Part shown: in pieces, positions 518-21,263 of the stretch
How the letters are laid out: each line of letters starts with the position of its first letter
How positions within the stretch are numbered: position 1 is the first letter of the stretch
DNA from: a virus
IMG/VR virus record: IMGVR_UViG_3300042564_001184
Location: 1 to 23,197 of that record
DNA length: 23,197 bases
Direction: 5' to 3' (one strand)
Position numbers and translations under genes: made by a program
The notes under the pieces: generated by a model
Seen by the model: the letters and a program-made list of their open reading frames with translations, nothing else
Databases searched by the model: none
Told to the model about the DNA's origin: nothing

Positions 518-1054
518 CTATCCTGGGAATTGTGCTAGATATTCTCTAGTCCTGTCGGTAATGCCGTTCCATGCTGACCAGTTCTTTCCACCGTTAGACA
601 TCTTGAATGCTATCTTGGCATTGGTGTATGGGTCAAACAGGTCTTCGTTCCTGCTTAGATTAAACTGCTTTAGTCTTGCTGGTCCCAGAGAACCGATCAT
701 GTTAATCTGGAATAGACCGTATGAGTTGTCCCCTGTCTTGCTGTTCTTATTGTGTGCCATTGGTCGTCCTGTTGACTCCTTCATAGCAGTTGCCCAAGCC
801 GTCTTTAGACCATTACCACGGAAGCCAACTTCATGAAGAATGTTCTTCAGTTCGTGTGGCTTTAGCATTGTCTTCTTTGTATAAACAACCTTGACAGGCT
901 TTAGATTCTTAACAAAATTTAGGGTAGTGTCTGGCTTAACAACAACGCTACTGGTTGGCTCAACTACTGGGGAAGCCTGTGCTGGGTTGGTAATCGCAAA
1001 AGGCATTACGAACAGGGCAATAATTGTCTGGATTTTATGCTTATTGTTTTTCAT
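518..1054 (-). CDS. Secreted lytic transglycosylase-like lysis protein
   Basis: The protein has 178 residues when started at the ATG at 1052-1054. That start gives a clean Sec signal peptide: basic KNNKHK, a hydrophobic core to about residue 22, then an AQA-S cleavage site near residue 27. After a Val/Pro-rich linker comes a lysozyme-like transglycosylase (SLT) domain: AMKESTGRP with the probable catalytic Glu at residue 93, SYGLFQIN at 111-118 and a C-terminal NWSAWNG. Such domains cleave the MurNAc-GlcNAc bond. An upstream in-frame ATG at 1084 would add ten residues before the signal peptide and overlap the -35, so it is unlikely. The chosen start lies 6 nt behind a TATAAT box, which suggests leaderless translation. 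Export by signal peptide means it need not depend on the holin. Confidence 0.8.
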   Translation of the reverse strand: MKNNKHKIQTIIALFVMPFAITNPAQASPVVEPTSSVVVKPDTTLNFVKNLKPVKVVYTKKTMLKPHELKNILHEVGFRGNGLKTAWATAMKESTGRPMAHNKNSKTGDNSYGLFQINMIGSLGPARLKQFNLSRNEDLFDPYTNAKIAFKMSNGGKNWSAWNGITDRTREYLAQFPG

Positions 1055-1089
1055 CCTACAATTATACCAGGATACTATAGCCATGTCTA
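1055..1089 (-). promoter_or_regulatory. Promoter giving a near-leaderless transglycosylase mRNA
   Basis: On the minus strand, TAGACA (1084-1089, five of six) and TATAAT (1061-1066) are 17 bp apart. The -10 is followed by TGTAGG and then the ATG at 1054, so transcription would start at about the A of the start codon. It overlaps a divergent plus-strand promoter at 1078-1106. Confidence 0.7.
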
Positions 1090-1112
1090 CCCTGAAATGC
1101 TATAATTGTATC
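1078..1112 (+). promoter_or_regulatory. Divergent extended -10 promoter, leaderless configuration
   Basis: TATAAT (1101-1106) is preceded by TGC (an extended -10 TGn) and by a weak TAGCCA at 1078-1083 with 17 bp spacing. The next bases are TGTATC and then the ATG at 1113. The spacing of 6 nt puts the likely start point at the start codon. No Shine-Dalgarno sequence is seen. Confidence 0.65.
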
Positions 1113-1271
1113 ATGTCCAAGTTTAGGTACCCGATTTTCCCAGATAGAACATATACAATAGTATATGAAGACTTTGAATATGAGGTTACTGGCGAGGAGA
1201 TCGTTGCCATGTTTAGACGTGGAGCCTACCTAGAAAAGATACTTGAAGAAATTGAAACCGAATCCAACTAA
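1113..1271 (+). CDS. Small hypothetical acidic protein
   Basis: This 52-residue protein begins MSKFRYPIFP and ends EEIETESN. It contains TYTIVYEDFEYEVTGEEIVAMF, which reads like two beta strands followed by a helix, and no motif gives a function. The start was chosen because ATG 1113 sits 6 nt behind a TATAAT box; a longer reading upstream would run antisense through the transglycosylase gene. Its last 29 bases overlap the non-ATG start region of the following sulfotransferase-like gene, which suggests translational coupling. I would treat it as a real small gene of unknown role. Confidence 0.6.
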   Translation: MSKFRYPIFPDRTYTIVYEDFEYEVTGEEIVAMFRRGAYLEKILEEIETESN

Positions 1272-1788
1272 TACTATTATTCTTACCGTTCCTAGGTCTG
1301 GATCAAACCTGCTTGAAAATACCCTTGAGGCAATGGCACTCATAAGAATTACAAAGACTCATAGTTGCTGGATGGCTAAGAAGAACTTTGTTGTTACTAT
1401 TGTTAGAGATCCTCTAGATACCCTGGTATCCTGGGCAGCAATGAGAATGCACTATCGCAATGGCAAGATAGACAAAGACATAGTCGCACAGTATTGCTCT
1501 AGTTATAGGTATCTAATTAAAAATGCGTCTATTATATTAGACTACAACGAACTTGTTGAGGACCCATACAAAGTTACAAATAATATAATTAACTATATGG
1601 GAATGAAGACTTTCTTCCGTGCCCCCAAAATAAAAAGAAACCCAGATGTTCCGAAAAGAAGGTATTTGGTTTCTAGCACGTCATCAGATTATTATAAGGT
1701 TGCCAGAGAAATACTAGAGCAGGAAGATCTCTCAGAGTGCTACAGTCTTTATGAGCAAGCCCTTAGTCTGAAAACAAAGTTTGACTAG
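1243..1788 (+). CDS. Short sulfotransferase-like protein
   Basis: A 181-residue protein with both PAPS-binding signatures of the sulfotransferase superfamily. The 5'-phosphosulfate loop is PRSGSNLLE (about residues 17-25) after a beta strand IILTV. The 3'-phosphate motif is VRDPLDTLVSWAAM (about 54-67) with the conserved Arg and Ser. These enzymes move sulfate from PAPS to sugars or other acceptors. It is shorter than the usual 250-300 residues, so the acceptor-binding part is reduced. There is no ATG near the start: the TTG at 1243 or the TTG at 1252 is the likely initiator, overlapping the upstream gene. The end overlaps the convergent zinc-protein gene by 26 bp. The fold call is good; the substrate is unknown. 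Confidence 0.75.
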   Translation: MKKLKPNPTNTIILTVPRSGSNLLENTLEAMALIRITKTHSCWMAKKNFVVTIVRDPLDTLVSWAAMRMHYRNGKIDKDIVAQYCSSYRYLIKNASIILDYNELVEDPYKVTNNIINYMGMKTFFRAPKIKRNPDVPKRRYLVSSTSSDYYKVAREILEQEDLSECYSLYEQALSLKTKFD

Positions 1789-1972
1789 TATCTACTGGCT
1801 TGCCTGACACAAAAGCCTCGTGGCATCCGTAGCAGTAGTGTGTTGGGCTTCCGTAAAACTTCTTACCGCCCAGAGCAATACCCTCAGCCCTAGCCAACTC
1901 AATTAGTTTCTGAGATGGGGTGCCGTAGAAGATGTTGACAAGGTCATGGTTGCAATTAGTACAAATATTCAT
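1763..1972 (-). CDS. Small zinc-ribbon-like protein
   Basis: A 69-residue protein with CTNC at residues 4-7 and CYGC at 47-50, a paired CxxC arrangement expected to hold one zinc. Between them are YGTPSQKLIELARAEG and LGGKKFYGS, which I associate with small conserved actinophage and actinobacterial proteins of unknown role. The ATG at 1970-1972 lies 6 nt behind TATAAT. The gene is a single minus-strand unit inside a plus-strand island, divergent from the second sulfotransferase-like gene and convergent with the first, with a 26-bp overlap at the 3' ends. A DNA, RNA or protein adaptor role is possible but not shown. Confidence 0.65.
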   Translation of the reverse strand: MNICTNCNHDLVNIFYGTPSQKLIELARAEGIALGGKKFYGSPTHYCYGCHEAFVSGKPVDTSQTLFSD

Positions 1973-1984
1973 ATATTAATTATA
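1973..1984 (-). promoter_or_regulatory. -10 box in leaderless configuration for zinc-ribbon gene
   Basis: TATAAT on the minus strand (1979-1984) is followed by TAATAT and the ATG at 1972. The 6-nt spacing equals that of the neighbouring genes. No convincing -35 and no Shine-Dalgarno sequence are seen. Confidence 0.55.
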
Positions 1985-1989
1985 CCATG

Positions 1990-2004
1990 TGATAAAATTG
2001 TTAT
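1990..2004 (+). promoter_or_regulatory. Extended -10 box in leaderless configuration for second sulfotransferase-like gene
   Basis: TGA-TAAAAT (1990-1998) is followed by TGTTAT and the ATG at 2005, the same six-base gap and the same TGT that follow the other boxes. It is divergent from the box at 1979-1984, so the two genes share a short control region of about 30 bp. Confidence 0.6.
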
Positions 2005-2550
2005 ATGACAATAACAATACATAGCCACCAAAGATCTGGAACAATGTTCATACTTAATAATCTTTCCAGACTATTTGACATGGCTGGTCACAATCCTGGC
2101 ATACACAAAAGCCTGCTAGAAAACATTGACAATCCAGATAACTTTAAGATGGTGGTTCTCAGAGATCCAGTCAACACAATCCTATCTATCTATGTTCACA
2201 GCAAAGTCTTTATGCAAGACAAAGACATGTCACCAAACCTTGAGCATCTAAAGATGGCTATCGTTGGTTATGTTGAATACCACAAAGAAATTGAGAAACA
2301 TCTAGAGAATCTGCACGTTTACAAGTTTGGCAACCTAGAAGACATTGTGCTAGATATTGCGTCTAGGTTTGTAGAAATTCCAAAAGACTTTGTCTTCTTG
2401 AAAAATTCTGATTACGAAAACAATCCAGCCAGCGTTAAAGACGTGCCACTATACCAAGACACTATTAATAGCATTAGTGATTATGATATGTTTAAGCCTG
2501 CCATCGACATATACAACAGGCTAATTGAAAAGTCAAGTATAATTGTATAA
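2005..2550 (+). CDS. Second short sulfotransferase-like protein
   Basis: A 181-residue protein, the same length as the sulfotransferase-like protein encoded at 1243-1788, with the same two PAPS signatures. The 5'-PSB loop is HQRSGTMFILNNL (8-20), and the 3'-PB motif is VLRDPVNTILSIYVHS (51-66) with RDP at 53-55 and Ser 61. The rest differs strongly between the two, so they probably have different acceptors. The 5'-PSB residue usually written Lys or Pro is Gln-Arg here, as in some bacterial and viral sulfotransferases. The stop codon overlaps the next gene in a TAATG. A nucleotide-kinase-type P-loop is an alternative for the N-terminus, but the 3'-PB motif favours sulfotransferase. Confidence 0.68.
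   Translation: MTITIHSHQRSGTMFILNNLSRLFDMAGHNPGIHKSLLENIDNPDNFKMVVLRDPVNTILSIYVHSKVFMQDKDMSPNLEHLKMAIVGYVEYHKEIEKHLENLHVYKFGNLEDIVLDIASRFVEIPKDFVFLKNSDYENNPASVKDVPLYQDTINSISDYDMFKPAIDIYNRLIEKSSIIV
2538..2549 (+). promoter_or_regulatory. -10 box within the 3' end of the upstream gene
   Basis: TATAAT (2538-2543) followed by TGTATA and the ATG at 2550 repeats the leaderless pattern. Here the box lies inside the last codons of the second sulfotransferase-like gene, and the start overlaps its stop as TAATG. Readthrough from the upstream gene could also express the downstream gene. No -35 is seen. Confidence 0.45.
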
Positions 2551-2759
2551 TGGATCAAGAAGAAATCCAAAGAGAGATAGACAAGATTGTTTATCGCCTT
2601 GGACCTGCTGGCGAAGAGTTGTTCTCTTATGCCGTTGCCCTTGAGAGAATCCGTATATTTCAAAACCTTCAAACCCTGATTCAGCAAAAGGATTCTGCTA
2701 ATGACCAGATCGCTGCTGAGGTGCTGTCCTGGGCTTGGCAAGCACTAGCAGAACAATAA
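2550..2759 (+). CDS. Small hypothetical helical protein
   Basis: A 69-residue, probably all-helical protein (EEIQREIDKIVYRL, LFSYAVALERIRIFQNLQTLI, AAEVLSWAWQALAEQ) with amphipathic heptad-like spacing that suggests a coiled-coil or helical hairpin. I do not recognise a family. It starts in a TAATG overlap with the second sulfotransferase-like gene and ends 17 bp before the next start. Its place between modification enzymes and virion-type proteins does not settle a role. Confidence 0.6.
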   Translation: MDQEEIQREIDKIVYRLGPAGEELFSYAVALERIRIFQNLQTLIQQKDSANDQIAAEVLSWAWQALAEQ

Positions 2760-2764
2760 TACTG

Positions 2765-2776
2765 TATAATTGTCTT
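2765..2776 (+). promoter_or_regulatory. -10 box in leaderless configuration for virion-type gene
   Basis: TATAAT (2765-2770) is followed by TGTCTT and the ATG at 2777, again six bases. It lies in the only true gap (17 bp) between two plus-strand genes here. No Shine-Dalgarno sequence precedes the ATG. Confidence 0.6.
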
Positions 2777-3058
2777 ATGACTACTCACGCACTTGTAACA
2801 CTCAGCAACTCTACCGCCACTAGGCTTACCCCAGCAGTTCTACACTCTGGCATGGATATCACAATCCAAAACGTTCACGACTCTGCATACGTTTACCTCG
2901 GAGGAGAGGGCGTTACGTCTTCAAACTACGGATATCGCATTGCTCCTGGACACGCAATCTCTTGGGAACTACCTGGAAGAGATGCCATCTATGCAATCAC
3001 AAACACCAACAATTCTAAGATTGCTGTAATGAAAACCAATCTTGAGAGTGGTAATTAA
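2777..3058 (+). CDS. Small virion-type (decoration or fibre-associated) protein
   Basis: A 93-residue, beta-rich protein containing LTPAVLHSGMDITIQNVHDSA, YVYLGGEGVTSSNYGYRIAPG and ISWELPGRDAIYAITN. I recall this pattern from small conserved proteins coded beside tail-fibre genes in phages; it looks like a single jelly-roll or immunoglobulin-like fold. It has no signal peptide or membrane segment. The stop overlaps the start of the collagen-like gene in a TAATG, which implies the two are made in a fixed ratio and probably belong to the same virion structure. The structural role is inferred from context and composition; no enzyme motif is seen. Confidence 0.6.
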   Translation: MTTHALVTLSNSTATRLTPAVLHSGMDITIQNVHDSAYVYLGGEGVTSSNYGYRIAPGHAISWELPGRDAIYAITNTNNSKIAVMKTNLESGN

Positions 3059-9062: not shown

Positions 9063-9857
9063 TTAGTCTTTCCAGATAACGTCAATTGAGGTTGGCTTGG
9101 TGTAGTCCTTACCAAACTCAGCAAACACTGACTTATCTTTCATACGGTTAACAATGCCACGAGACCAGGAGAATCCTGCGTCTCCACCCCAAGCAAGCCA
9201 CATGATGTAGCCATTAGATGGGTTAGCCTGGCTTCCCCAGTCCTTGCCCTTCTTATCTACCTCGTGACGTGAGAAATATGAGTACATACGCTTTACAGTA
9301 CTGAGCGAGAGTGTCTCTCCATTAGCCAACTGTCTAGCCCTAGTCCATCCAACTGCAGTTCCTGCTCCAGTGGCTTTGCCGTCTTCCTTGAACTTAATAG
9401 CACGACGAGCAGCAGACCTGGCACCAGCAGGAGGAGAGTAGCCCTCAGCCTTGTCCATATACTTTTCATCTTCATCCTCTTCTGCAATCTCGATATCAAC
9501 GATTATTGCGTCATTATAAAGCATACCGATTGAGTATGCGGTAGGACAGAACTTTCCATCCTCTTCTTGTTCAAACATTCTTACTGCCATGGCAGGATTC
9601 TCTGGAGTAGATTCAATGGCGTACTCTGTGCCTGGTGTGCCGTATGTACCACCCTCGGTCATGATGTGCTCTACTTGACCAACTACGATGCCCTCTGACG
9701 TTCCGCCCATTACATAGTCGCCCTCAGAGATTGGGCGATCTGCTTTTGCTACTGGAATGCAGTTAGGAACCATTGCACCTCCGTCGCCTGGCTTCATGCC
9801 ACGCTGAACGTAGCCATCCCAGCATGGGGCTTGCTTGTTTGTCATCTCGTTGTCCAT
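9063..9857 (-). CDS. Virion-associated-type protein with head-morphogenesis-like C-terminus
   Basis: A 264-residue protein. The N-terminal half ([16 protein letters not shown], then a beta-rich [20 protein letters not shown]) looks like a small barrel. The C-terminal half has [50 protein letters not shown] and [12 protein letters not shown], a conserved helical module I associate with phage head-protease or head-associated open reading frames (often next to prohead genes) and with toxin-like phage proteins. No catalytic residues can be named. The start ATG overlaps the stop of the Dps-like gene (TAATG), and an ATG four codons later is an alternative start. It shares an operon with a ferritin and a nucleotide-sugar enzyme, so a structural role is uncertain. 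Confidence 0.6.
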
Positions 9858-10306
9858 TAGTCCATCTCCTCTGTTTCCATGCTTACACGAATCTGCCAGC
9901 AGAACTTTTGAGATACAGCCTGACGTGCAGACAGGAAGTCAACTAGCCCATTCTCTCTGGCTGTAGTTGCAGTTGTAATTGCATCCTTTAGGTCTTCTAT
10001 GTGCTTCTCAATCGACATATAAAGATCGGCAAGCATTGGCTGAGGGTCCCCAACAAGTACAGGCTCTGGCATGGACGACATGTCGAAGAAGTCTGCTAGT
10101 CTGTATGGTGCATAAGTCTTAAAAATTCGTAGCCACTCTGCGTAGGTGTCTGTTGCTTCTTCATAATCTTCATAGATCTCTGAGAAAAAGTCGTGGAATT
10201 GCTTAAAGTCGTCTGACTCCACGTTCCAGTGGTATCCGTGTGCCCTAAACTTGAGAGCAATATTGTCTGCAAGAAGTTGCTTTAGTTGTGAGATTAGTTG
10301 TTCCAT
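9857..10306 (-). CDS. Dps-like ferritin
   Basis: A 149-residue protein of the Dps/ferritin-like superfamily. LKFRAHGYHWNV (18-29) and FHDFFSEIYEDYEEATDTYAEWL (37-59) correspond to the ferroxidase-centre helices. H26, H38, D53 and E57 match H51, H63, D78 and E82 of E. coli Dps; the D67 position is Ser 42, with E43 beside it. Dps proteins bind and oxidise iron and shield DNA from oxidative damage in a 12-subunit shell. The C-terminal half is divergent and ends METEEMD. The start is 7 nt behind a TATAAT box, near-leaderless. Its iron chemistry may be weaker because of the D67 change. Phage Dps could protect DNA during lysis (inference). Confidence 0.8.
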   Translation of the reverse strand: MEQLISQLKQLLADNIALKFRAHGYHWNVESDDFKQFHDFFSEIYEDYEEATDTYAEWLRIFKTYAPYRLADFFDMSSMPEPVLVGDPQPMLADLYMSIEKHIEDLKDAITTATTARENGLVDFLSARQAVSQKFCWQIRVSMETEEMD

Positions 10307-10319
10307 GGGTTTAATTATA
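10307..10319 (-). promoter_or_regulatory. -10 box for the Dps-like gene
   Basis: TATAAT on the minus strand (10314-10319) is followed by seven bases (TAAACCC) and the ATG at 10306. There is no Shine-Dalgarno sequence, so a leaderless or nearly leaderless mRNA is expected. The -35 is weak. Confidence 0.5.
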
Positions 10320-11146: not shown

Positions 11147-11446
11147 CTACTTCTTTGGTGTAGTCTTCTTTGCAGCAGGTGCCTTAGCAGTGGTAGCAGG
11201 CTTCTTTGCTGGAGCCTTTACCACCTTAACATCCTTTAGTGCCTCTGCAACCTCTTCTACAGGTGGCAGTGTTCTACCAAACGCTGGGTCCTTTGGGTTT
11301 ACGTAACGTAGTGCTACTGGAACCAAAGCAGCCAATAGAGAGTACAACAGATCCTCTAGTGGCACACCTGCTAGGTATAGTGCAAGACCAGCACCAAGGA
11401 CCGATCGTCCGTATGATGCCAAGAGTGCCTTTAGTTGTGTGTTCAT
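11147..11446 (-). CDS. Small holin-like membrane protein with Lys/Ala/Pro tail
   Basis: A 99-residue protein. Two hydrophobic stretches (about residues 13-27 and 31-48: SVLGAGLALYLAGV, LLYSLLAALVPVALRYV) form a hairpin. A Pro-acidic linker follows (PPVEEVAEAL), then a basic low-complexity tail (KAPAKKPATTAKAPAAKK). The shape is like small phage holin or antiholin proteins with a charged tail. The tail is also like histone H1, but that is composition only. The ATG is preceded by AAGGAG. The gene ends before the terminator at 11105-11138 and is last in its operon. It could be the holin for one of the endolysins; a second candidate is at 22695-22952. Confidence 0.55.
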   Translation of the reverse strand: MNTQLKALLASYGRSVLGAGLALYLAGVPLEDLLYSLLAALVPVALRYVNPKDPAFGRTLPPVEEVAEALKDVKVVKAPAKKPATTAKAPAAKKTTPKK

Positions 11447-11807: not shown

Positions 11808-12043
11808 AGTTGTTCCTTTCCGCCCTCACGAATTAGGAGCACGATAGCCCCATTGTCCTCAAGAGCCTTCTTCACTCTTACCATGTATTCAATAGCAGAC
11901 CTCTTGTCTTCGTCTAGCAGACGCATAAAGGTGTCTTCTCTTGCAACCACACTAATAAAGTGATCGTTATCAATGAGTTCTACACCAAAGTTTCTTGGTG
12001 CAGGGACTGACCTAAACGCTCTACGCATTTCATCGGTATACAT
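11804..12043 (-). CDS. Hypothetical protein
   Basis: A 79-residue soluble protein. Features seen are RAFRSVPAPRNFGVELIDNDHFISVVA, then EDTFMRLLDEDKRSAIEYMVRVKKALEDNGAIVLLI. It has an alternating beta-alpha-beta look and could be a small mixed-fold domain. I do not recognise it. It is coupled to the WhiB gene before it (TAATG) and the membrane-protein gene after it (ATGA). Such tight linkage implies coordinated expression under the WhiB unit. Confidence 0.5.
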   Translation of the reverse strand: MYTDEMRRAFRSVPAPRNFGVELIDNDHFISVVAREDTFMRLLDEDKRSAIEYMVRVKKALEDNGAIVLLIREGGKEQL

Positions 12044-12333
12044 TATTTATCCTTATCCATAGTTAGAGTCTTCCATGTCTCTGACCAATCCTGCTTTGTC
12101 CTGTGCTTGTTGAATTCTCTAGAGATCTTTCCATTTTCAAAATAGATTCCTCCCCAGACTCCCCAACCCTTGTTAGTTACAGCAGATGCAAAACACTGCT
12201 TTCTTACAGGACATTCAGCACATATCGAGTCTACAAAACTCCTTGAATCTACGTCTTCTTCATAGTCATCAAAGAATGTGTTTATCTCCATGCCCAGACA
12301 GGCTGACTTTTTCTTCCAGTCATGTCTATCCAT
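12043..12333 (-). CDS. WhiB-family iron-sulfur regulator
   Basis: A 96-residue protein when started at the ATG at 12331-12333 (the TTG at 12342 would add three residues). The four cysteines (C12, C38, C41, C47) are spaced as CX25CAECPVRKQC, the signature of the [4Fe-4S] cluster. WGVWGG follows at about 57-62, the G-V/I-W-G-G turn that contacts sigma factor. WhiB-like proteins bind SigA region 4 and DNA and control transcription in Actinobacteria and their phages; mycobacteriophage TM4 WhiB is a known case. The basic tail (KHRTKQDWSETWKT) is short. It is the clearest host clue in the window and a candidate for reprogramming the host or the phage promoters described here. Confidence 0.88.
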   Translation of the reverse strand: MDRHDWKKKSACLGMEINTFFDDYEEDVDSRSFVDSICAECPVRKQCFASAVTNKGWGVWGGIYFENGKISREFNKHRTKQDWSETWKTLTMDKDK

Positions 12334-16726: not shown

Positions 16727-17383
16727 TTATTCTCTTCCGTCGGACTCTACAATGATCTCTCTGTTATGGAACCAATACGGCAAGGCGTAACGCTGACCAC
16801 TAGTCATTTTGTGGACCTCGTGTACGTACAAAAAGTTTGATGGGAAAAATATGATGCTACCTGCTGTGGGCTTAATTTTTACACCAGAGTTTACAAACTC
16901 GATCTCTCCGCCCTCGTAGTCATCATTGAGATACGTTACTGCAGACAGCACTCTGCTGCTAACGCCCTGATCTTGGTGAGCAGGAAGAAATCCATCGCTT
17001 GTATATCTGAGAACATGTATCTGGTTCTCCCTGCCCTTTATATTATTTTCAGCAAATGGATACAGGACCTGAGAGTAGTGTTTTAGTGCTAGGTTTAGGC
17101 TGGAGTCAAGTCGTTGATATATAGATGTCTGCTCTTTTGCATAGTAGTCTTCTTCAGAAATGTGCTTGTCTTCTAGCAGATACTTTTTGTCACAAAACTT
17201 GTTGTCCCCATATTCCCAAGTACCCCACGGCTTTAGTCGTGTTTCGTGTCCAGAGTGCTCATTGTTTTCATACCTACGGTCTAGGTCAAGAATGTCTTTT
17301 ATTATTTTATCTGGGTCGTTTACGACCCCCCTGTAGATTACTAGACCAAGATCTAGGATCTCAAAGTCAAGATTTTGGAACAT
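16727..17383 (-). CDS. 2OG-Fe(II) oxygenase (prolyl 4-hydroxylase-like), copy 1
   Basis: A 218-residue protein. The iron ligands are H136 and D138 (LPAHQDQG) and H188 (YVHEV), and R198 (GQRY) ten residues later binds 2-oxoglutarate. LNDDYEGGEIEF (152-163) is a common core strand. It would hydroxylate a protein or glycan group. The substrate may be a virion or host-surface molecule, as it lies beside glycosyltransferase genes. The ATG lies inside the tail of the upstream oxygenase gene (17-bp overlap). No signal peptide is seen, so the enzyme is cytosolic. Confidence 0.85.
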   Translation of the reverse strand: MFQNLDFEILDLGLVIYRGVVNDPDKIIKDILDLDRRYENNEHSGHETRLKPWGTWEYGDNKFCDKKYLLEDKHISEEDYYAKEQTSIYQRLDSSLNLALKHYSQVLYPFAENNIKGRENQIHVLRYTSDGFLPAHQDQGVSSRVLSAVTYLNDDYEGGEIEFVNSGVKIKPTAGSIIFFPSNFLYVHEVHKMTSGQRYALPYWFHNREIIVESDGRE

Positions 17384-17966
17384 ACTCTCGAGCCTTCCAG
17401 GTGTCTGCTTGTCCAGGCTCTAGGAAGTCTGGGTCTGCATGCTGTGGCAAACTTGTATGCATATATAGGGCGGTGAACCTATGTCCACTTGTAATTTTTG
17501 TTATGCCATGAACATATTCAGTGCCTGCACTTGGGAAGAACACTGCAGAATACTTCTTTGGCTTATATTCGTACCCCTGATTTGGAAAGTAGATAACTCC
17601 GCCCTCGTACTCTTCTGGATCATTGAGGTATATGACGGTGCTAAACTCAATAAAGTTTTCCTTACCGCTTGCATCGGTGTGCATTCCACCTTCTGTTCCT
17701 GCAACCCAGTGAGAGCCAAAGGTTTTGAACACGTAGATTGGATTCAAGAAACCGTTTGCATCTTTGTGAACATCATTAGATTTGTGACCATACTTAATCA
17801 GAATGTCCATTACACGCTTGTTATATGGGAACCCAGTGCCCCCAAAGTATGTGCTGTACCTTTCTGGGTATGGGTTAATCTCTGATGGACGCATCTGCTC
17901 TTCGATCAGCGTGGCAGCGTCTTCTGGCGTTATAAAGTTTTCAATGACTAATATTCTATGGCTCAT
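17367..17966 (-). CDS. 2OG-Fe(II) oxygenase (prolyl 4-hydroxylase-like), copy 2
   Basis: A 199-residue protein. H96 and D98 (MHTDASG), H153 (YVHGI) and R163 (GHRF) form the metal and 2OG sites, the last pair again ten apart. DPEEYEGGVIYFP (116-128) and AVFFPSAGTEYVHG are conserved core parts. It is alignable to the 16727 product only over the core, so the pair is an old duplication or two captures. The start at ATG 17966 lies 4 bp after the upstream glycosyltransferase stop. Protein hydroxylation before sugar transfer is a possible shared logic, since hydroxyl groups are glycosylation sites (inference). Confidence 0.83.
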   Translation of the reverse strand: MSHRILVIENFITPEDAATLIEEQMRPSEINPYPERYSTYFGGTGFPYNKRVMDILIKYGHKSNDVHKDANGFLNPIYVFKTFGSHWVAGTEGGMHTDASGKENFIEFSTVIYLNDPEEYEGGVIYFPNQGYEYKPKKYSAVFFPSAGTEYVHGITKITSGHRFTALYMHTSLPQHADPDFLEPGQADTWKAREYVPKS

Positions 17967-17970
17967 GATA

Positions 17971-18816
17971 CTATTCTACCACAGACTCTGCCGAATTCAA
18001 AACATTGACTTTTTGCACAAACTTCTTTGCACTAGCAGTAAAGAAGTTGTTTTCATGAACGTCATACTCAACATCGTTGATCAGGTCTGGTGACGGCAAA
18101 TAGTAATCCTTATCAAGATTATGATACTTAACAAAGTTGGCTGCTTTTCCAGAATTGATTGCCCTGTGAACATTGTTAAAGTTGTGATACTTTGAGAAGG
18201 TTGTGTACATATTTTCTATCGTCCTTGCTCCAAGGTCTGTGTATAAGTCTCCTGGTGCGTTGTAGATATCTATATTGCTATCCATTACGTTAATGCTAAA
18301 CATCTCTTCTTCTCCATAGTACTTTAACCTTGATGGATAATTCATGTTCTTTAGTAGTTCTGTTCTGGCAAAAATAAAGTTTCTATCTATATATTGGGAC
18401 ATTGAAAAATCATCTGATTCGGTTGGAACATTGATGATTGTGTATGGGTCCTTATAAGATACCTTCGCTGTAGCCCTGCCAGACACCACTACGTCTCGAT
18501 CTTTAAAAAATTCTGATAGCCTTGTGTCCCAGCCCTGATTAAACCAAACATCATCGGATACTATTGCAGTAAATGGAGAGTCGGACTCTTGTATCTCTTT
18601 GGTCTTTCTCATACATGGGCTCTCGATAGAGTCCCAATACACGTGTTCGTAGTTTAAATTGGCATAATCTTTAAAGGTAAAATGCTTGCGAATGTTGCTC
18701 TGATCAAACACCTTTATGGAAAAGTTTTTCATCTCTGAGGTTTCGTATATGTTATCTATCACTTCTTGTAGGCGTTTATTCTTGTAAGAATAAAGAATTA
18801 TCTTAGTTGTGCTCAT
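17971..18816 (-). CDS. Glycosyltransferase (GT-A-like, GlcNAc-transferase-type)
   Basis: A 281-residue protein. KIILYSYKNKRLQEVIDNIYET is a strand-helix start. YWDSIESPCMRKTKEIQ and TAIVSDDVWFNQGWD (83-97), with DD at 88-89 as the probable DxD-like metal site, are in the order found in GlcNAc-transferase-like GT-A enzymes. ARTELLKNMNYPSRLKYYGEEEMFSIN (150-176) has the acceptor-side acidic residues. The C-terminal 80 residues (ENMYTTFSKYHNFNNVHRAIN, NKV...) are less conserved. It is cytosolic. It ends 4 bp before the oxygenase pair and starts 14 bp inside the upstream unknown gene. The donor and acceptor are unknown. Confidence 0.72.
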   Translation of the reverse strand: MSTTKIILYSYKNKRLQEVIDNIYETSEMKNFSIKVFDQSNIRKHFTFKDYANLNYEHVYWDSIESPCMRKTKEIQESDSPFTAIVSDDVWFNQGWDTRLSEFFKDRDVVVSGRATAKVSYKDPYTIINVPTESDDFSMSQYIDRNFIFARTELLKNMNYPSRLKYYGEEEMFSINVMDSNIDIYNAPGDLYTDLGARTIENMYTTFSKYHNFNNVHRAINSGKAANFVKYHNLDKDYYLPSPDLINDVEYDVHENNFFTASAKKFVQKVNVLNSAESVVE

Positions 18817-19561: not shown

Positions 19562-20292
19562 TTGTATTCCTTTTTAGCCCTAAAGAAATTCTTATATCCA
19601 TTTGCAAACACACTTCGAAGAAGCAACCCTTGCTTTAGTATAGTTTTCTTTGATTCTTCTGGAGATGTGATCTCCATCTCCCAAGACTCTCTTTGGAATG
19701 GCACCAACTGTACGAGTGGTGTTCCCCTCTTAATAGTGCCCTTGAAATTCTTTTCAACCAAGAATGAAAAGTGTCCATCAGTAACAAAACTATCAGTGTC
19801 TACGATTCCTGGAAATGCAACGATTGGTGATTCGTCTGTATGCATTGGCTGTAACACCATGCAACTATATCCTGGCGGAGTTCCTACTGCCCACAATGGA
19901 AAAACTCTTAGCAGGGTTCTGTGATACTTGTCGGTATCAATCGGGTAAGTTCCATACTGCTCCAGTGAGTGTGAAGAAAATACCCTACCTCTGATCGGAC
20001 CGAGTTGGTTTGGTGCAGAGAATTCTAGGTTGTCTGGGTTGGTTGCGTCCACATAAATATCACATGGTGCAAGCAAAAGGTACCCTGCAGTCATTGCATC
20101 AAAGATTGGCATGCACTTTTTTATTGTGCTGGTGGCTATTCCCTTGGATAAAAGATCCTTGCTTATTGTCGGTGGCTGTCTTTTATACCACTCTGGCATG
20201 TTCTTGCTCGCTGGTATTGGTTGTGGTGCAAAGTCAATTATGTTTTCGTCTGCTGGATAAAAAGTAATGCTTTTATTTTTCTTGTTCTTCAT
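19558..20292 (-). CDS. Unknown beta-rich protein, tandem paralogue B (DUF6065-like)
   Basis: A 244-residue protein. NMPEWYKRQ, CMPIFDAMTAGYLLLAPCDIYVD, GTPPGYSCMVLQPMHTDESPI and GIVDTDSFV are followed by GTIKRGTPLVQLVPFQRESWEMEI, matching paralogue A in order and spacing. Conserved CMP, TPPG, V-D-x-D-S and KRGTP-type loops may form a ligand site. The function is unknown. The gene overlaps the one before it by 20 bp and the one after by TTGA, so all three are coupled. Neither copy is degraded, which suggests that both are needed, perhaps as a heteromer (inference). Confidence 0.6.
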   Translation of the reverse strand: MKNKKNKSITFYPADENIIDFAPQPIPASKNMPEWYKRQPPTISKDLLSKGIATSTIKKCMPIFDAMTAGYLLLAPCDIYVDATNPDNLEFSAPNQLGPIRGRVFSSHSLEQYGTYPIDTDKYHRTLLRVFPLWAVGTPPGYSCMVLQPMHTDESPIVAFPGIVDTDSFVTDGHFSFLVEKNFKGTIKRGTPLVQLVPFQRESWEMEITSPEESKKTILKQGLLLRSVFANGYKNFFRAKKEYN

Positions 20293-20926
20293 AGAATTTC
20301 CTAACTCTCTCTACAATTATATCATTAGCCTCAAACTCTATGTTGAATGCTGGGGAGCCCCTATATATCTCTCCATATCGTCCATTATCCTTCATGTGAC
20401 TGCCATCTAACTTAAACTTAAAAGAAACAAACTGTGGAACGATATAGTCTTCCCAGTCTTGCACCTTATAGAACGACACAGTGGAATCTGGGACTTCGAA
20501 TGGAGAGCCATCTGGCTCAACAACCCTTGCGGTGATGTCAGCATCGATAATCCAGTAGGTGAATGTCTTATACGCAGGAGTTCTACTTAGGCTACCGCTG
20601 TCCCAAGAGTTTTTTGTCTGATAGTACTGTCTTATCCATGGTCGTTCGGAGTGGTAGTAGGGTCTATCCTTCTGCATTCTCAGGTATATGTCTGCAAAAA
20701 GTTGGTACTGAAGTGTAACAGTATTGTTAACAATGCTAATTAACTTTGGTGGAAAAGCCATGTACTCAAGATACTGGTTGACTGGCTTTATGATGGAGTC
20801 TTTGTATTTGCCGTCTATGTTCTTTGCAGTTAGCCACTTTTCTGGTACCCTGGATGCCCTGCACATCTCTGTAAATTGGGGATCGTACACTTCGTCCCAT
20901 AGATTAAAATTAAATTCTGGATCCAC
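20273..20926 (-). CDS. Conserved phage protein of unknown function
   Basis: A 217-residue protein started at GTG 20926, four bases after AGGAG; the longer reading would start in the tRNA-Thr gene. Regions are FNLWDEVYDPQFTEM, FPPKLISIVNNTVTLQYQLFADI, PWIRQYYQTKNSWDSGS, FTYWIIDADITARVVEP and VQDWEDYIVPQFVSFKFKLD. It is beta-rich and aromatic-rich with no signal peptide or helix bundle. I do not recognise it. It begins 18 bp from the tRNA cluster and is the first protein gene of the operon running down to 16727, so it is probably transcribed from the tRNA promoter at 21235-21263. Confidence 0.6.
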   Translation of the reverse strand: MDPEFNFNLWDEVYDPQFTEMCRASRVPEKWLTAKNIDGKYKDSIIKPVNQYLEYMAFPPKLISIVNNTVTLQYQLFADIYLRMQKDRPYYHSERPWIRQYYQTKNSWDSGSLSRTPAYKTFTYWIIDADITARVVEPDGSPFEVPDSTVSFYKVQDWEDYIVPQFVSFKFKLDGSHMKDNGRYGEIYRGSPAFNIEFEANDIIVERVRKFYEEQEK

Positions 20927-21234: not shown

Positions 21235-21263
21235 ATTATACAGGATCAGATTCCTATTTGCAA
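21235..21263 (-). promoter_or_regulatory. Promoter of the tRNA cluster and downstream operon
   Basis: TTGCAA (21258-21263) and TATAAT (21235-21240) are 17 bp apart on the minus strand, with the -35 lying inside the last codons of the GT4 gene. The predicted start near 21228 is a few bases before tRNA-Asn. Confidence 0.72.

Follow-up and report, generated by a model that had tools for sequence, protein, structure and literature searches.

Genes of an apparent actinophage seem to carry their promoters fused directly to their start codons. In the IMG/VR virus record IMGVR_UViG_3300042564_001184, taken here in its entirety (23,197 bases, hereafter "the window"), several genes are preceded by the -10-like hexamer TATAAT placed exactly six bases before an ATG, and the messages of these genes very likely begin at the start codon itself, that is, they are leaderless. 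With high confidence, the elements can be read as host-type (sigma-A/HrdB-like) promoters joined to the start codon and giving rise to leaderless mRNA. A first-pass annotation of the same DNA had proposed leaderless promoters at these genes, and its proposal is upheld by a spacing fixed at six, a conserved box, the absence of Shine-Dalgarno (SD) sequences and a -10 element of actinobacterial character. All of the boxes that it had listed were found again at the same coordinates and distances, including the seven-base spacing before the Dps-like gene.

The arrangement is far more frequent in the window than expected by chance, as estimated from 1000 dinucleotide-preserving shuffles of the window. 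TATAAT-N6-ATG is seen six times against a shuffle mean of 0.26, and none of the 1000 shuffles reaches six; this count, set beforehand as a possible refutation of the proposal, thus places the motif well above background. One of the six matches, on the minus strand at 1684, precedes a frame of three codons and is itself a chance match. Neither TATAAT alone (20 against 14.8) nor the loose form TANNNT-N6-ATG (22 against 16.9) is significantly enriched, and because the loose form stays at background, the signal in the window must reside in the exact box. Although these two null results are what chance matches in AT-rich DNA would lead one to expect, the six occurrences against 0.26, together with the spacing peak in relatives and the conservation of the box in homologues described below, leave that explanation with almost no credibility.

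The fixed spacing is also found across related viruses. A first set of loci, found via the lysozyme-like gene, was reduced to 46 non-redundant members; with loci found via the gene at 2777 and the Dps gene, a larger set comprises 145 non-redundant loci and 1.13 Mb. In the first set, an open-frame ATG follows TATAAT at a spacing of six in 97 cases (other spacings, 0-18), and in the larger set 274 cases fall at a spacing of six, 53 at seven, 47 at nine and around 10 elsewhere, as compared with about 2 at spacing six, and 0-6 over all spacings, in the reversed-sequence control of the 145 loci. GTG occupies the six-base position only twice in these loci against 274 occurrences of ATG, a dominance that may merely mirror overall start codon usage. 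The pattern rises above the reversed control in 25 related records and three records have none, while the longer form TGNTATAATN6ATG yields 57 matches in 12 large related contigs and 0 in the reversed control. In T4, an Escherichia coli phage of 34% GC, no peak at spacing six was seen. The relatives also contain a second class of starts, in which nine bases, frequently AGAAANACT or AAAANNACT, separate TATAAT from the ATG; it is present in L038, L041, L045, L057-L060, L062, L068, L071, L073, L077, L013 and L016, recurs upstream of similar proteins and may yield a leader of three bases.

Conservation of the box is equally evident when the motif plays no part in the choice of sequences. For 24 window genes, homologues were identified by tblastn and their upstream DNA was taken whatever motif it contained. 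TANNNT lies six bases before the start in 30 of 38 non-redundant Dps homologues and seven bases before it in the other 8, accounting for all 38; for the gene at 2777, the six-base form is found in 30 of 37 non-redundant homologues (27 with the exact TATAAT) and the seven-base form in 4, a total of 34. The non-redundant homologues of the gene at 1972 have the box at six bases in 8 of 9 cases and at seven in the remaining one, all five of those of the gene at 2550 have TATAAT-N6-ATG, and two of three homologues of the 2OG-Fe(II) oxygenase gene (17966) have TANNNT-N6. Operon-internal genes behave differently: homologues of the gene at 11446 have the box in 0 of 28 cases and an SD match in 27 of 28, and those of the M23 peptidase have an SD sequence in 6 of 6. 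Over all homologue sets, 80 starts have a box only, 68 an SD sequence only and 7 both (Fisher p about 1e-17), an exclusion that is partly mechanical because the two elements fill the same bases. It shows two distinct modes of gene start within one phage family, and the earlier claim that box genes lack an SD sequence agrees with these counts. In a few relatives, an SD-like sequence occupies the box slot itself, before the counterpart of the 2777 gene in L188 and L197 and before the lysozyme-like gene in L032, L037 and L069.

Comparison of the sites in relatives gives a consensus of TGn-TATAAT-N6-ATG. Among 188 unique exact-TATAAT sites, T is found at -15 in 66% and G at -14 in 76%, with the complete TGn at 115 (61%); judged by its sequence, TGn-TATAAT represents an extended -10, as in sigma-70-type promoters, of the ordinary host type. 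A -35 element accompanies a minority: TTGACA-like sequences matching in five or more of the six positions occur at 8 sites of the first set where 1.4 are expected, and generally precede the box by exactly 17 bp; a -35 common to all of the promoters was thus rejected. Each of the four sites with a perfect TTGACA is without TGn; a trade-off between TGn and -35 is not significant in the first set (p = 0.4). A pyrimidine occupies -1 in 76% of the 188 sites, which fits transcription initiating on the A of the ATG; in Mycobacterium tuberculosis, start sites show a preference for C at -1 and for T at +2 (PMC3898074). As to the polymerase, the sigma factor domain Sigma70_r2 (PF04542) was undetected in a search of 12 related contigs (92-118 kb) that included a positive control, and a phage-encoded sigma factor was accordingly set aside as a candidate, albeit with some chance that it is too divergent to match or lies in genome portions that the contigs lack. 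The simplest inference is that these promoters use the host housekeeping polymerase.

How such a start might work can be outlined from these features. RNA polymerase would recognise TATAAT, usually preceded by TGn and only in some cases by a TTGACA located another 17 bp upstream, and would begin transcription some 6-7 bases downstream of the box, at the A of the start codon. Such an mRNA would have no 5' leader, and the ribosome would initiate on the 5'-terminal AUG, as is common in actinobacterial hosts. Leaderless starts would serve first genes or single-gene units, such as those for the lysozyme-like enzyme, the small conserved proteins and Dps, and genes within operons would rely on SD sites. 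The start on the A, leaderless translation and recognition by a host sigma factor are all inferred here from sequence.

Several observations weigh against this interpretation. The boxes at 2005 (TAAAAT) and 17966 (TAGAAT) depart from TATAAT, and a homologue search with the 2005 gene found none. The smaller peaks at spacings 7 (53) and 9 (47) also count on this side, and with the recurrence in relatives of the TATAAT-AGAAANACT-ATG class they would suit promoters that are real but whose transcripts begin 1-3 bases upstream of the ATG and so have very short leaders. The main peak, however, lies at six, which would place +1 on the A given the usual distance from box to start, and the pyrimidine preference is located at -1 of the ATG; initiation slightly upstream is therefore considered unlikely, and a start on the A itself is preferred.

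A separate issue is the TGT that follows the box at five of the window genes, which the first-pass annotation had taken as a possible fixed initiation signal or as a recognition site for a phage factor such as WhiB, and which could make the promoters a phage-controlled regulon. The triplet is present and its excess within the contig is real: it follows four of the five TATAAT boxes of leaderless genes at spacing six, the TAAAAT site and the TATAAT on the minus strand at 20321, and TATAAT-TGT-NNN-ATG is seen 4 times against just 0.002 expected in shuffles. GT at -5/-4 recurs, moreover, in the nearest relatives (L005, L173). Yet TGT is not common to relatives, being found at 3 of 73 unique related sites in the first set and 8 of 188 (4%) in the larger one. 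At orthologous promoters the box and its distance remain intact while TGT gives way to other triplets, among them TAT, AGT, GGT, AAT and AGA. The six bases after the box are TATAGG before the lysozyme-like gene of L005, L006 and L173, where TATAAT-N6-ATG is kept, AGTACC and GGTATC before the 1113-gene homologues of L005 and L006, respectively, and GGTAGG, AATAAG or AGTAGC at others. Among homologues of the 2777 gene, TGT is confined to the window copy; TATAAT-TGT is found in 0 of 9 homologues of the 1972 gene, and TGT in 2 of the 5 of the 2550 gene. Information content in the 2777 and Dps sets is 0.0-0.6 bits after the box as compared with 0.7-1.9 bits within it. WhiB proteins, furthermore, exert their effect via region 4 of sigma and the DNA on the upstream side of the -10 rather than on its downstream side. 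TGT as a fixed signal is rejected by the orthologues, and both this reading and a WhiB site at TGT are unsupported and very improbable. In G026, the promoter that by sequence corresponds to that at 1113 has an identical TGTATC, and this, with the GT of the nearest relatives, makes the TGT run look like a bias at the level of the window's lineage.

Table 1. Putative leaderless promoters of the window and its WhiB-family gene
Feature	Coordinates	Strand	Gene served and remarks
Leaderless promoter TATAAT-TGTAGG-ATG	1052..1066	-	Secreted lysozyme-like (SLT_3) gene 518-1054
Leaderless promoter TATAAT-TGTATC-ATG	1101..1115	+	Conserved 52-aa gene 1113-1271; extended -10 TGC
Leaderless promoter TATAAT-TAATAT-ATG	1970..1984	-	Conserved 69-aa gene 1763-1972; extended -10 TGG
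Weaker candidate TAAAAT-TGTTAT-ATG	1993..2007	+	Sulfotransferase-like gene 2005-2550; extended -10 TGA
Leaderless promoter TATAAT-TGTATA-ATG	2538..2552	+	Conserved 69-aa gene 2550-2759
Leaderless promoter TATAAT-TGTCTT-ATG	2765..2779	+	93-aa gene 2777-3058, phrog_30212-like
Leaderless or one-base-leader promoter TATAAT-TAAACCC-ATG (7-base spacing)	10304..10319	-	Dps/ferritin-like gene 9857-10306
WhiB-family gene	12043..12330	-	Pfam Whib 2.5e-12; suggests actinobacterial host; no link to promoters
Probable leaderless promoter TAGAAT-AGTATC-ATG	17964..17978	-	2OG-Fe(II) oxygenase gene 17367-17966

The individual sites (Table 1) differ in context. The promoter of the lysozyme-like gene has TGG directly before its box and TAGACA 17 bp upstream of it, and is divergent from that of the 1113 gene. 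Between the two, GGGTAGACATGG is conserved in the window (about 1079-1093), L005, L006, L009 and L010; it contains the -35-like TAGACA of one of the divergent promoters and may have an additional role as an operator. The box of the 2550 gene sits in the last codons of the gene upstream, whose stop codon its ATG overlaps, and the Dps/ferritin-like promoter has TGG immediately before the box. The sulfotransferase-like label of the 2005 gene comes from inspection of the protein, which has no Pfam match. The minus-strand site at 17966 is absent from the first-pass list. Two further boxes on the minus strand lie outside the leaderless distance, namely TATAAT-TGTAGAG at 20321, ahead of a gene that starts near 20292, and a TATAAT at 21240, about ten bases before a tRNA-Asn gene.

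On gene content, the virus is probably an actinophage, as is indirectly indicated by its WhiB gene and by a ThyX gene whose DNA is similar to that of Streptomyces phages of the Karimac group, and the exact-box gene starts likewise support an actinobacterial host. A genome scan with the GDP-mannose dehydratase returned no actinobacterium among the matches listed. Freshwater actinophages that have WhiB and a GC content of about 45% have been described from 'Ca. Nanopelagicales' (PMC10202952), and the likeness of the virus to them, together with its own GC content, suggests a freshwater origin.

Published actinobacterial and phage promoters place the arrangement in the window among those of an already known kind. 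Bacterial leaderless genes are recognised by a TANNNT located some 12 bp ahead of the start codon (Zheng et al. 2011, PMC3160421); in Actinobacteria they amount to over 20% of all genes (PMC3160421), and in M. tuberculosis mapped transcription starts bear them out (Cortes et al. 2013, PMC3898074). Like the TA-led genes of Actinobacteria and Deinococcus-Thermus, those described here have a sigma-70-like box about 12 bp upstream, no SD sequence and a weak or absent -35; unlike the published ones, they commonly have the full TATAAT, are dominated by ATG and occur in phages of 40-43% GC. The TGn frequency of 61% at unique exact-TATAAT sites also contrasts with the 7% of M. tuberculosis TANNNT promoters. 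Among phages, the Cluster O mycobacteriophages (Corndog) have predicted leaderless SigA promoters, PL1, PR2 and PL2 (PMC4351075), whose predicted +1 likewise coincides with the initial base of the start codon, and PL1/PR2 diverge from each other within an AT-rich intergenic region, much like the 1054 and 1113 promoters. Cluster O, however, is a different phage group with a few predicted sites per genome, whereas the arrangement is followed here across many uncultured relatives. In Karimac (L165; Stanwilliamsviridae, MH590599), a Streptomyces phage that has been isolated, TATAAT-N6-ATG occurs at the annotated structural-gene starts 22695, 29689 and 43831 and TATGAT-N6-ATG in the same arrangement at 24495, although exact boxes are fewer. 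Several Karimac boxes directly follow GC-rich, terminator-like hairpins ending in a TTTTGCTTT-like tail, which suggests a compact joining of terminator and leaderless promoter. TTTTGC upstream of the Karimac structural genes was considered as a special -35 and rejected, being read more simply from the sequence as the T-tail of a terminator hairpin.

What is added here to these known systems is the sharp conservation in uncultured relatives, the strong preference for TGn, and orthologues that have either a box or an SD-like sequence in one slot; the idea that the phage has a novel signal of its own falls away. Somewhat speculatively, TGn-TATAAT-N6-ATG might constitute a self-contained promoter-plus-start cassette of about 18 bp through which small accessory genes can pass into or among these actinophages without losing their expression, with the slot at -12 to -7 switching between a -10 box and an SD sequence. 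If so, the SD-like slots of L188, L197, L032, L037 and L069 would be such switches, the box making a gene leaderless with its own promoter and the SD sequence making it operon-internal. More broadly, uncultured related actinophages would employ the leaderless starts known from actinobacteria and keep them across many viruses, and an ATG with an exact TATAAT at six-base spacing would be strong evidence for both a start codon and a promoter in metagenomic phage contigs.

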